This document shows, in pieces, positions 24,085-27,490 of a stretch of DNA of 64,000 nt. Under the pieces are notes generated by a model that was not told the DNA's origin, ran no database searches, and saw nothing but the letters and a program-made list of their open reading frames with translations. The translations under genes and the position numbers were made by a program. Origin of the DNA: an uncultured Roseobacter sp. GTDB lineage: Bacteria; Pseudomonadota; Alphaproteobacteria; Rhodobacterales; Rhodobacteraceae. Position 1 is the stretch's first letter. Every line of letters begins with the position of its first letter. The DNA is taken from contig CANMWT010000003.1 in assembly GCA_947501635.1 (NCBI GenBank), forward strand, positions 248,001 to 312,000, in the 5' to 3' direction.

Positions 24085-24588
24085 CTAGTCCTCCTTTCCG
24101 CCATCCAGGAAAATAAGCGGATCGAAGTCATCCGGCAACTCGTCCAGCCAGGCTTCGGTTTTGGCAGCCTCTTCAGCTTCATAGGTCTCAGGCGCCCAGA
24201 TCTGGAACGTGTCACCTGCCGCGATGAAAAACGCCTCTTTGTCCAGACCGATCTTCTGACGCAGCTTGGCGGGCAGAACCAGACGCCCCGTTTCGTCAAC
24301 CGCCGTGGGAAAAGACTGACCATGAAACAGGCGCTGCAGCATTTTACGCTCCATGGAGCCACGCGGCAGCGCGTCGATCTTGGTGTCCACCTCTTCGATG
24401 GCCTGAATGGTGTAGCATTCCAGATAGTTGCGACGGTGATCGCCGTAGACAATGACCAACTCGGGCGCAGCGCCGGACTGCCAGTTCGGATCGGAAGCCT
24501 CGATCACACGCCGAAAAGAGGCTGGGATAGACACCCGCCCCTTCGCATCGACCTTGTGATGGCTCTCGCCTCTAAACCTTCGGCTCAC
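24085..24588 (-). CDS. mraZ: Transcriptional regulator MraZ
   Basis: MraZ is a DNA-binding protein with two swapped-hairpin AbrB-like domains that represses its own dcw promoter in E. coli. The 167-residue product has FRGESHHKVDAKGRVSIPASFR near the N-terminus and the second repeat FPTAVDETGRLVLPAKLRQKIG. The start is GTG at 24588 with an AAGG 4-5 nt upstream. It is the first gene of the cluster and is preceded by a leader of roughly 270 nt that carries an internal terminator-like hairpin. A weak pair of 10-bp-spaced TGG repeats lies just upstream of the predicted promoter. Confidence 0.95.
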   Translation of the reverse strand: MSRRFRGESHHKVDAKGRVSIPASFRRVIEASDPNWQSGAAPELVIVYGDHRRNYLECYTIQAIEEVDTKIDALPRGSMERKMLQRLFHGQSFPTAVDETGRLVLPAKLRQKIGLDKEAFFIAAGDTFQIWAPETYEAEEAAKTEAWLDELPDDFDPLIFLDGGKED

Positions 24589-24649
24589 TGCCTTGTCCCA
24601 ATTCCCTTTACCGCTTTAGCTGCGGCGCGTATCCCCCTGTGGTTGAAAT

Positions 24650-24690
24650 GGAAACGGCGGATTGATCAGCTGCCATTGATCAATCCGCCG
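24650..24690 (-). terminator. Internal terminator-like hairpin of the dcw leader
   Basis: CGGCGGATTGATCA (24655-24668) and TGATCAATCCGCCG (24677-24690) form a perfect 14-bp stem with an 8-nt loop. On the minus strand it is followed by TTTCCATTTC, a poor T run, which fits partial rather than complete termination before mraZ. Confidence 0.6.
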
Positions 24691-24862
24691 CCCTCGTCCC
24701 GCGTTGCGGGGAAGTCCAGCTGCGCGCGCCACCTGGGGGGATGTCTGCTCGCTCGCGCGCCGGATCTCTTGGCCTGATGAAAGCGAGGTGCCTGTATGAA
24801 ACCTGCTAGAGTTTTGTTTGCGTGGGGTCGTTTGGTGCCCCGATGTCTCGTTCTCATCTGAT
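24650..24862 (-). ncRNA. UpsM-like sRNA in the mraZ leader
   Basis: In Rhodobacter sphaeroides the dcw operon is preceded by a long 5' leader that yields the sRNA UpsM by partial termination and processing. The same layout is present here. A promoter at 24869-24898 is followed by about 210 nt of GC-rich, structure-prone leader, which ends in a 14-bp perfect hairpin (24655-24690) and TTTCC. A further 60 nt then runs to the mraZ GTG. The boundaries are inferred from the promoter and hairpin, not from a sequence comparison, so the homology rests on position and architecture. Confidence 0.6.
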
Positions 24863-24868
24863 GTATTA

Positions 24869-24898
24869 GGGATACCGTGGGAATAGATGGTCTGACAA
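24869..24898 (-). promoter_or_regulatory. Putative dcw (UpsM-mraZ) promoter
   Basis: On the minus strand TTGTCA and TATCCC are spaced by 18 bp. Transcription from about 24862 would give a leader of about 274 nt before mraZ. Just upstream (24922-24908) TGGGG and TGGTC are 10 bp apart, faintly like the TGGG-type repeats that MraZ binds. Confidence 0.4.
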
Positions 24899-24929
24899 GG
24901 GTTTTTTGACCACCTTACCCCAAAATGTT

Positions 24930-25269
24930 GTTATCGGGAGCCCATGAAAACAAGATATAGAAGCATATTGTCAAATTTATTAGAAAATGTTGATTTTTTT
25001 TAAGCTTGAAACACAACATATAGATAATTTAGGCGCAGCCAAAAATTTCCCCTGAATTCCCAAAAAAAATGCAGCTTGGCTACACCTGCATGAAATGTTC
25101 ATACTTTGTTCGTAAAATTTCATGCCAGAGCCGATAAAAAAAGGGGTATTGGTTGATTCGGATGATCCCTATCGGCCCGCATGGGGGCAACGTCCCATGG
25201 TTTCCCACAGCAGGGTTGCGACCCGCAGAACCCGCGTCACAGCATGCAAGCTGTCCGCATTGGGCGCGC
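24930..25269. other. Gene-free AT-rich stretch between mraZ leader and mrp
   Basis: No gene is visible. The part at 24930-25080 is strikingly AT-rich for this genome, with runs of T and A. A perfect 9-bp dyad, GCATGAAAT / ATTTCATGC, spans 25088-25125. GCCGATA / TATCGGC flanks 25130-25176 and encloses a C4-T7 run on the minus strand that could be a weak terminator for mrp. A 6-bp dyad CATGGG/CCCATG lies further right, near 25180-25198. Confidence 0.35.
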
Positions 25270-26349
25270 TTAGGCCATGCCGCCCTTGATAAGGCCCTGA
25301 GCAATCCGTGCGTAGGCGTCCGCCATTGGCCCGTCTCCGGCAGCGATCGGAGTGCCACCGTCTCCGGCAAGCCGTGTTTCCAGATCGATCGGCAAGGCGC
25401 CCAGCAACGGCACGCCCAGCTTTTCCGCTTCGGCTGCAACACCGCCCTGCCCGAATATCTTGTGCTCTGACCCGCAGTCGGGACAAACAAACATGGACAT
25501 GTTTTCAATCAGGCCCAGAACGGGGGTTTTGAGCGTGTCGAACATATCAAGCGCCTTACGCGCATCGATCAAGGCCACATCCTGTGGTGTCGAGACGACA
25601 ATGGCGCCCGTGAGTTCAGATTTCGTGCACAGCGTAAGCTGCACATCGCCCGTTCCCGGCGGCAGATCAACCAACAGGATATCCAGTTCGCCCCACTCGA
25701 CCTGGCCCAGCATTTGCTGCAATGCGCCCATCAACATCGGCCCACGCCATACGACGGCCTTGGATTCTTCCAACATAAAGCCAATGGACATGAGCGTGAC
25801 GCCATGCGCATGCAACGGGATAATCGTTTTACCGTCCGGACTGGCGGGGCGCTTGTTAATACCCATCATGCGGGGCTGGCTCGGGCCGTAGATATCCGCA
25901 TCCAGCAGACCAACCTTGCGGCCCGCTCTGGCGAGTGCGACGGCAAGGTTGGAGGATACCGTCGATTTGCCGACACCGCCTTTGCCCGACCCGATCGCCA
26001 GAATACGCTTAACGCCGGTGGGTTTCGTGGGTCCCTCCTGCGGTTTGGGGTGCCCGCCGATCTTGAGGCTGGGCGCGGCAGGTTTCTGAGGTGCCGGGCC
26101 ATGCGCCGTCAGGGCAACAGATGCCTGGCCCACCCCAGGCACCTCGGCCACCACTTTCTCTGCCGCATCCCGCAGGGGCGCCATCTGACGGGCAACTTCA
26201 GGGCTGGGCGCCTCGATCACGAAGCGCACGGCATCGCCGTCAATCGTCAATGCACGAATCAAATCATGAGCAATCAGGCTCCGACCGTCAGGTAACAAGA
26301 CCCGTTCCAGCGCGGCTTCGATTTCGGCTTTGGTGACAGACATGCTCAA
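25270..26349 (-). CDS. apbC: Fe-S cluster carrier ATPase Mrp/ApbC
   Basis: ApbC/Mrp is a P-loop ATPase that binds and transfers 4Fe-4S clusters to apoproteins in the cytoplasm. The 359-residue product begins with a MIP18 (DUF59) domain of about 80 residues, followed by a Pro/Ala/Lys-rich linker. The ParA-like domain then has the deviant Walker [12 protein letters not shown] at 120-130, [14 protein letters not shown], and the cluster-binding CPDC at 289-292. It is divergent from the DUF1127 gene, with 209 bp between them. Confidence 0.95.
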
Positions 26350-26423
26350 TTTCTCCCCATTGGCGCCACTCCATATAGCAACTCAAATGATAAGTGCCAG
26401 CGCATGGCCAAATTTGCCCAACT

Positions 26424-26453
26424 CTTGAGCAATCTGCCCGCTTTTCCCCCTAC
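26424..26453 (+). promoter_or_regulatory. RpoH-type promoter candidate upstream of the DUF1127 gene
   Basis: CTTGAGC is followed after 15 bp by CCCCCTAC, close to the heat-shock sigma pattern CTTGAAA - CCCCAT-T. In R. sphaeroides the matching DUF1127-CcsR locus is driven by RpoHI/RpoHII, which makes this candidate attractive. A perfect 7-bp dyad CCATGCA/TGCATGG lies just downstream (26458-26476). Confidence 0.4.
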
Positions 26454-26558
26454 CTTCCCATGCATATGCTGCATGGCAGCATTGAATTTGGGGCTATTGT
26501 GCAACTGCAGCATTTGCCTAAGTATAGGACACAGAGCAGCGAGTAAGAGAGTGATAAA

Positions 26559-26789
26559 ATGGCTTACGCAGTAAACACGACAACATATGGTTTCCCAGAG
26601 CGGGTGCTGGCTGGTGCCGCATTGCTTCTGCAAACCGCAGCCGCGCGATATGCCCGCTACCGCATTTATCGCGCATCCGTAGCGGAACTGCGCGCGCTGA
26701 GCGCACGCGACCTTGCCGACATCGGATTGAACAAATCAATGATCAAATCAGTCGCTCTGGAAGCGGCAGACAAACACTTGAAATTCTAA
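26559..26789 (+). CDS. DUF1127 small RNA-binding-type protein (CcaF1-like)
   Basis: This 76-residue basic protein ends in a DUF1127 (YjiS-like) domain with the conserved LRALSARDLADIGL segment near residues 44-57. In R. sphaeroides the DUF1127 protein CcaF1 is encoded just upstream of the CcsR sRNAs, is cotranscribed with them under stress and affects their maturation. Here too a run of CCTCCTCCC stem-loops begins about 15 nt after the stop codon. Assignment as the CcaF1 counterpart is based on this context; sequence identity was not measured. Confidence 0.85.
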   Translation: MAYAVNTTTYGFPERVLAGAALLLQTAAARYARYRIYRASVAELRALSARDLADIGLNKSMIKSVALEAADKHLKF

Positions 26790-26799
26790 ATCGAAAGCT

Positions 26800-26880
26800 T
26801 TCGGGTACCTCACTCTTCCTCCCAGAGGTGCTCGCAAGTTAGCGGCGACATCGCTCCTCCTCCCAGATGTCGTCGCTTCT
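26800..26880 (+). ncRNA. Cuckoo/CcsR-type sRNA, unit 1
   Basis: Two stem-loops expose anti-Shine-Dalgarno motifs. Stem 1 pairs 26803-26811 with 26825-26833 (9 bp, two G-T) and has CTTCCTCCC in its loop (26815-26823). Stem 2 pairs 26842-26852 with 26866-26876 (11 bp, one G-T) with CCTCCTCCC at 26856-26864. A two-hairpin RNA of about 80 nt is the defining shape of the cuckoo family. Confidence 0.7.
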
Positions 26881-26944
26881 TACACCAGCTTGAGGCACAT
26901 ACCTCATGCGCCCGGCCACCTCGACACAGATGTGGACGGTTCAA

Positions 26945-27030
26945 CCGGATCAGGTGCCCACATCCTCCTCCCGTGGGTGCCTGCAACTAGGCGGCGGCAT
27001 CCTCCTCCTCCCGATGCCGTCGTCCCTTAT
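26945..27030 (+). ncRNA. Cuckoo/CcsR-type sRNA, unit 2
   Basis: Stem 3 pairs 26951-26961 with 26973-26983 (11 bp) around a loop with CCTCCTCCC at 26964-26972. Stem 4 pairs 26990-27001 with 27013-27024 (12 bp) around CCTCCTCCC at 27004-27012. The stem bases differ from those of unit 1 with compensating changes while the loops stay constant, which shows selection on structure and loop motif. A 65-nt spacer with only weak hairpins separates it from unit 1. Confidence 0.7.
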
Positions 27031-27054
27031 TCAGGGTCGTAACGGCCCGACGAC

Positions 27055-27135
27055 ATACTGACCGCGCTCTTCCTCCCTGAACGCGCTGTCAGTCAGTAAA
27101 GCGGTCCTCACCTCCCGAGGGCCGCTTTTTCTTTT
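27055..27135 (+). ncRNA. Cuckoo/CcsR-type sRNA, unit 3
   Basis: Stem 5 pairs 27058-27067 with 27082-27092 (interrupted by one mismatch) with CTTCCTCCC at 27069-27077 in its loop. Stem 6 is the terminator hairpin at 27099-27127, whose loop reads ACCTCCC. It is probably processed from the same transcript as the DUF1127 mRNA. Confidence 0.68.
27099..27135 (+). terminator. Terminator of the DUF1127-sRNA transcript
   Basis: AAGCGGTCCTC and GAGGGCCGCTT form an 11-bp stem (one G-T pair) closing the loop ACCTCCC, followed by TTTCTTTT. The hairpin serves both as the last CCTCCC loop and as a strong Rho-independent terminator. Confidence 0.85.
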
Positions 27136-27184
27136 CACGGCCGGTATCTGTACTAAAATGCGGGTATTGCAGGAAAGGCTCGCC

Positions 27185-27490
27185 ATGCCCGCCTATTTCA
27201 TAGCCGACATCACCATCCACGACCCGGACGGATACAAAAGCTATCTCGAGGGGTTTATGGACATCTTCAACCGACACGGCGGCAAACTGCATGTGGTTTC
27301 AAGCGCTGAGGTACACAGGATCGAAGGCGACTGGGCGCCGCAAAGCATCGTTCTGATGGCGTTTCCCACGCTGGCCGCCGCACTGGCATGGAAAGACGAT
27401 CCGGACTACGTGGCACTGGCGCGCATCCGGCAGGCCACCGCGACCACGCATTTGGTGCTCGTCGAGGGCCTGCCGACCGACCCTGCCTAG
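27185..27490 (+). CDS. DUF1330 family protein
   Basis: This 101-residue protein is of the DUF1330 type, a dimeric ferredoxin-like (ABM-related) fold of unknown activity. The family start MPAYFIADITIHDPDGYKSY is clear, with a later VLMAFPTLAAALAWKDDPDY segment. I chose the ATG at 27185 because AGGAAAGG stands 6-13 nt before it; an upstream in-frame ATG at 27158 has less support. It begins 50 nt after the sRNA terminator and ends 29 bp before the convergent helicase gene. Confidence 0.85.
   Translation: MPAYFIADITIHDPDGYKSYLEGFMDIFNRHGGKLHVVSSAEVHRIEGDWAPQSIVLMAFPTLAAALAWKDDPDYVALARIRQATATTHLVLVEGLPTDPA

Follow-up and report, generated by a model that had tools for sequence, protein, structure and literature searches.

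A short DUF1127 gene in the window (the whole stretch of DNA analysed, 64,000 nucleotides long) is followed by six hairpins with CU-rich loops, arranged as three pairs. The array is a relative of the R. sphaeroides ccaF1-CcsR1-4 locus (cuckoo, CIN1) and as such belongs to a known family of alphaproteobacterial stress-RNA clusters; the new part is its promoter, which carries two conserved boxes, named E1 and E2 here. The anatomy, the conservation, the covariation of pairing and the family match are established by the analysis. To the reading as a whole, a ccaF1-type DUF1127 gene whose 3' end gives rise to three cuckoo sRNAs of two hairpins each, with a mechanism that includes a step at the polyhydroxybutyrate sensor PhaR, we give a probability of nearly nine in ten.

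The DUF1127 gene and its hairpins

The gene and the array comprise the following features.

26559..26789, + strand: gene for a CcaF1-like DUF1127 protein of 76 aa (PF06568, 43.4 bits; cut-off 23.3)
26802..26834, + strand: hairpin 1 (pair 1), loop with CTTCCTCCC; from the fold; helix 1 of the alignment structure
26842..26876, + strand: hairpin 2 (pair 1), loop with CCTCCTCCC; from the fold; helix 2
26883..26945, + strand: spacer between pairs 1 and 2, two small motif-free hairpins; helix 3, kept in relatives
26951..26983, + strand: hairpin 3 (pair 2), loop with CCTCCTCCC; from the fold; helix 4
26990..27024, + strand: hairpin 4 (pair 2), loop CTCCTCCTCCC; from the fold; helix 5
27057..27093, + strand: hairpin 5 (pair 3), CTTCCTCCC part-paired; from the fold; helix 6
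27098..27128, + strand: hairpin 6 (pair 3), loop ACCTCCC; intrinsic terminator followed by a T-rich tail; helices 7 and 8

All six loops lie where an earlier sequence-only reading had placed them, with motifs at 26815 and 27069 (CTTCCTCCC), at 26856, 26964 and 27004 (CCTCCTCCC) and at 27110 (ACCTCCC). The RNA motif CCUCCUCCC is exact in three of the six, carries one C-to-U change in two and is replaced by ACCUCCC in one. For each hairpin, every one of 200 shuffles folds less well (z from -3.4 to -5.5), and the whole 346 nt reach a z of -9.0 that none of 100 shuffles equals. The string CYTCCTCCC occurs five times in 26790-27135, against a mean of 0.03 and a maximum of 1 in 2000 dinucleotide shuffles; elsewhere in the 64-kb window there is one copy on the same strand and none on the opposite strand. 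In the best fold of hairpin 5, three motif bases (UUC) are paired, so that its motif is less well displayed.

The fold bears out the grouping into three pairs that had been proposed, but not the 65-nt spacer between the first two: about 74 nt separate the stems of pair 1 from those of pair 2, and the spacer is itself folded (z -3.2; 1 of 200 shuffles as good). Its helix 3 has 4 base pairs, 2 of which are changed on both sides in the alignment, and this helix is kept in relatives and could perhaps mark processing. The second spacer, 27028-27056, likewise forms small hairpins that lack the motif. The last loop is indeed built into the terminator, hairpin 6 with its T-rich tail being the sole terminator-like site found by a scan of 26380-27220, where shuffles average 0.8 and the count is thus weak proof alone.

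Directly after the terminator, on the + strand, lies a DUF1330 gene (27158-27490). On the - strand, at 24589-25270, are mraZ and rsmH (named from reading frames), the start of a division/cell-wall cluster. The sRNA UpsM of R. sphaeroides derives from the leader of this mraZ-rsmH cluster; Rfam has no match at E<=1 in the mraZ-rsmH region of the window (24400-25300).

Relatives of the DUF1127 protein were found in 32 of the 59 genomes searched, including 18 of the 19 genomes from the genus (that of the window is one of them); the relative in Roseobacter sp. H9 is 58% identical. Judged by these relatives, the DNA of the window probably comes from a member of the Rhodobacteraceae. Gene and array occur together at 18 loci of the genus, with six detected hairpins at 12, five at one, four at four and three at one. 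These counts are lower bounds, because the detector skips a few visible loops (TATCCTCCC at locus L063 and the first loop of L076). Thirteen of the 18 loci, that of the window among them, can be aligned over their full length and share the three pairs, the spacers and the terminator. In the RNAalifold structure of these 13 arrays, 94.2% of cells are paired and 35 of 70 pairs are changed on both sides with pairing kept, values that none of 500 shuffles attains. Slid versions of the structure drop to 38-51% paired, a comparison in which the scored structure has the advantage of being derived from the same alignment. Helix 6, that of hairpin 5, has the lowest value of the six (80.5% of cells paired). 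The compensating stem changes that had been claimed are real across orthologous arrays (35/70 pairs); the evidence comes from orthologues, and not from comparing the six stems of the window's array with one another.

Named relatives with an array and a DUF1127 gene include Roseobacter sp. H9 (L046; at least four hairpins), Loktanella sp. IMCC34160 (at least seven) and Rhodophyticola porphyridii (at least six). One genome of the family (G006) has at least 15 cuckoo hairpins behind a single DUF1127 gene, at locus L082.

Relation to the cuckoo RNAs

The Rfam model for CcsR1 (RF02791) matches pair 1 at 26797-26881 (49.8 bits, E 5e-11) and pair 2 at 26947-27028 (39.5 bits, E 6e-8), and pair 3 weakly (17.2 bits, E 0.21); none of the three reaches its gathering cut-off of 65.3 bits. 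Matches to ar14 (RF02344), at 48.0 and 41.9 bits, are also below the cut-off (58.8). The CcsR1 cut-off is strict, as only 7 of 120 genomes of the family pass it; at E<=0.01, the model finds matches in 101 of these 120, compared with 1 of the 14 genomes that served as controls. The array is thus a hit of the cuckoo covariance model by E-value (5e-11 and 6e-8) and falls short of the curated Rfam threshold. In addition, it shows the features of the cuckoo family, six hairpins in three pairs whose stems vary while pairing is kept, and it has the short DUF1127 gene beside CcsR-like RNAs that defines CIN1 in the accessible text of PMC10253847. The parallel with ccaF1-CcsR1-4 drawn by the sequence-only reading was well founded, since the upstream gene is a DUF1127 gene (PF06568), CcsR1 matches are present, and the order is the same in the portions of the published descriptions consulted.

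The R. sphaeroides locus, like the window, has a DUF1127 gene followed by tandem units with CCUCCUCCC loops and a terminator at the end; its RpoHI/RpoHII promoter has a counterpart in the TTG-type promoter of the window. It differs in having four units where the window has three. The window loops include two CTTCCTCCC and one ACCTCCC, its last loop lies inside the terminator, and its CcsR1 score is below the Rfam cut-off; the comparison draws on the Rfam model and on published descriptions of the locus. The rhizobial RNAs alpha-r14 and NfeR1 (RF02344) also carry several CCUCCUCCC hairpins on freely varying stems, according to the available parts of PMC10746234 and PMC3927594. As described there, they have three or four hairpins per RNA, compared with three pairs behind a protein gene here, and NfeR1 has its own RpoD-type promoter, unlike the window array.

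A second cuckoo locus was sought in the window's genome and rejected: CcsR1 matches at E<=0.01 fall at two places only, both in the array, and the next-best match has an E of 0.13, in a search that at E<=10 matches 12 of the 14 control genomes. The string CCTCCTCCC has 14 sites in this genome, 3 inside the array and 11 elsewhere.

The promoter boxes and PhaR

Upstream of the gene, the promoter region contains four elements.

26467..26484, + strand: E1, palindromic box TGCTGCATGGCAGCATTG, candidate PhaR site; contains CTGCNNNGCAG at 26469-26479
26496..26512, + strand: E2, ATTGTGCAACTGCAGCA, second candidate PhaR box; from the sequence and its conservation in array promoters
26497-26499, + strand: TTG inside E2, probable -35
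26517..26525, + strand: CCTAAGTAT, probable -10, placed from alignments

Many other members of the family have a CCCATNTT-like sequence at the -10 place, which we take to resemble the heat-shock-sigma -10 consensus. A TTG is important for both RpoHI and RpoHII, according to the accessible part of PMC3441632. All 18 array promoters known from the genus, that of the window among them, contain both E1 and E2, in the order TGCTGCATRGCAGCATTG for E1, which varies little, a gap of 11-12 nt, ATTGTGCANNYGCAGCA for E2, and a CCTAAATAT-like sequence. For the family, 55 distinct arrays in which three or more hairpins had been detected were compared over 360 nt around the start. CTGCNNNGCAG is present in 38 of these 55 promoters and in 18/18 of the genus, TGCANNYGCAGCA in 48 of 55 and again 18/18, and the E1 core YGCATRGCR, a pattern that fixes the centre, lies upstream of 53 of the 55 arrays. 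As background, CTGCNNNGCAG occurs in 54 of 649 windows of equal length tiled over the same loci, promoters included. The strict E1-E2 composite was found in 204 of 394 genomes of the family, mostly as a single copy per genome; no reversed-control matches were tabulated.

The boxes resemble sites to which PhaR has been shown to bind in gel shifts, including that of the sRNA gene mmgR, as far as the available text tells. In that text (PMC12542648), the R. sphaeroides PhaR site is given as CTGCNNNGCAG, which is present near the array promoter at 26469-26479; the S. meliloti sites bound by PhaR in gel shifts are those of mmgR (CAATTGTGCACCGCAGCATTA), SMa1961 (ATATTGTGCAGTGCAGCAACA) and rpoE8 (AGATGCTGCACTGCAGCATTA); and phaP1 and phaP2 have two boxes flanking the -35, much as E1 and E2 do in the array promoter. 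The mmgR promoter box of Sinorhizobium meliloti, ATTGTGCACCGCAGCATT in the same source, and E2 of the window, ATTGTGCAACTGCAGCATT, differ by one extra central base in E2, a likeness that concerns the promoter box only and not the RNA. In the window's genome, phaC, a phasin gene and phaR are consecutive (PF07167, PF09361, PF07879), and three such boxes precede the phasin gene. In the phaC-phaP gaps of the family (n=29), 67 of 70 boxes have a purine-N-pyrimidine centre. This centre is absent from E1, which has ATG here, and ATA or ATG stands in every one of the CTGCNNNGCAG boxes listed; E2 has four bases between TGC and GCA instead of three. Both boxes are therefore off the local phaP consensus, E1 in its centre and E2 by one base in length.

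A further comparison concerns genomes in which phaR (PF07879) was not detected, 15 of 394 in the family. Among genomes at least 90% complete, the composite is found in 0 of 8 without phaR versus 180 of 339 with it; it is kept in three of the seven incomplete phaR-less genomes (G098, 84% complete; G208, 71%; G306, 77%). Part of this absence reflects the absence of the array itself, a CcsR1 match being present in 8 of the 15 phaR-less genomes, and in 4 of those 8 phaR-less genomes whose completeness is 90% or more. A DUF1127 gene adjoins the CcsR1 match in six of those eight with a match, the exceptions being G350 and G403. phaR is missing as well from the MAG to which locus L049 belongs.

Where the array persists, E2 is decayed (at least three mismatches) at 5 of 7 phaR-less loci versus 3 of 47 phaR-bearing ones (Fisher 3.3e-4, ignoring kinship); for E1 alone, the presence of phaR makes no significant difference (p 0.16). 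Genome G003 and locus L049, which look related, had been seen to lack E2 before phaR was searched for, and without them the counts are 3 of 5 versus 3 of 47 (p 0.008, again ignoring kinship). The counts cover loci with at least two detected hairpins, leaving out eight genus loci without a phaR search and one unplaced G007 locus; in G192 the position of E1 and E2 was read by eye, and the site aligned with the others is decayed. Genome G034 retains E2 but its E1 is poor. The assemblies that hold the two phaR-less loci with an intact E2 are 84% and 71% complete, so that phaR may be in the part they lack. Conversely, E2 is decayed despite phaR at two loci of one genome (G007) and at L087 (G009). 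On contig 6 of G007, four DUF1127 reading frames with cuckoo hairpins among them lie within about 2.2 kb (L034 and L080), and it is at two of these reading frames that E2 is decayed with phaR present.

By likeness of sequence, PhaR may control the promoter through E1 and E2. We lean, if only slightly, towards the view that across the Rhodobacteraceae the ccaF1-cuckoo operon is a direct PhaR target via two off-consensus boxes around the -35, and that polyhydroxybutyrate granules, by taking PhaR off the DNA, release the anti-Shine-Dalgarno RNAs. A different regulator using E1 and E2, or boxes that are merely an extended heat-shock-sigma promoter, is conceivable but on balance doubtful. The E1 centre and the E2 spacing are unlike those of the local phaP boxes, E2 overlaps the -35 TTG, and in the phaR-less G003 and G192 this TTG persists after the other bases of E2 are lost, all of which would suit such a reading; yet E1 fits the sequence CTGCNNNGCAG given for PhaR in R. 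sphaeroides, and E2 exceeds by one base the mmgR site ATTGTGCACCGCAGCATT, for which gel shifts prove binding, according to the consulted part of the literature, and the decay of E2 tends to accompany the absence of phaR. Within the open-licence papers covered, no link between E1/E2 and PhaR was found in print, and an earlier description elsewhere is possible; PhaR and DUF1127 occur together in one of these papers, in the portions seen without relation to each other.

Proposed mechanism and candidate targets

The R. sphaeroides work, as far as its text was accessible, describes ccaF1 and CcsR1-4 as one transcript from an RpoHI/RpoHII promoter; the CcsR RNAs are processed by RNase E with CcaF1, become less stable through PNPase, and have effects on C1 metabolism and on pyruvate dehydrogenase (PMC10253847, PMC8625941, PMC8307010, PMC7866481). 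The loop motif is regarded as an anti-Shine-Dalgarno sequence in the parts consulted of PMC3927594 and PMC10746234. Co-transcription, RNase E/CcaF1 processing, the stress sigma factors and the effects on C1 metabolism and pyruvate dehydrogenase are carried over from that organism and presumably hold here. A single transcript would begin near 26530, the likely start, at a stress-type promoter and end at hairpin 6. By analogy, RNase E, aided by the DUF1127 protein, would cut it into two-hairpin units, whose CU-rich loops could base-pair with ribosome-binding sites of the GGAGG type in target mRNAs. PhaR, on leaving the DNA for polyhydroxybutyrate granules, would act via E1 and E2, and the RNAs would then track the carbon-storage state as well as stress.

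One could also imagine an uncut RNA serving as a decoy, its six anti-Shine-Dalgarno-like loops binding sequences resembling ribosome-binding sites, or purine-rich sRNAs, in bulk and lowering their activity. Near-identical loops on freely changing stems suit titration, as does the family genome with at least 15 hairpins (L082). This we consider improbable, because two-hairpin units and spacers stay in register across the genus, and because mature CcsR RNAs and a target mRNA, flhR, are reported in the available R. sphaeroides text. That the hairpins would serve only to shield or structure the DUF1127 mRNA at its 3' end, with no action in trans, seems very improbable indeed: they do sit behind the gene and the last one is the terminator, but a stabiliser needs no fixed loop, and here the motif recurs while the stems change. 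Moreover, CcsR1-4 act in trans in R. sphaeroides, according to the same partial source.

Should PhaR act on the cuckoo operon as proposed, the reported CcsR effect on pyruvate dehydrogenase would let stored carbon feed back on the supply of acetyl-CoA. What switches the cuckoo RNAs on, a question so far answered by stress sigma factors in the text consulted, would become a question of PhaR binding and repression, and a group of sRNAs whose loops are complementary to ribosome-binding sites would be tied to carbon storage across a bacterial family, as mmgR is in a rhizobium.

The apparent phaC start in the window's genome (L163; G000 contig 2, 430249) has the ribosome-binding site GGGAGGAAA, complementary to the UUCCUCCC loops. 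As a target, phaC was nevertheless rejected: of 40 regions fetched, 29 phaC starts were placed, and GGGAGGA stands at only 5 of them, this one included, and is absent in the nearest relatives. A general target list was given up as well, the pattern GGGAGGAR-N3..10-ATG having 49 sites, too many for ranking; two of these fall within the array, on its reverse strand.
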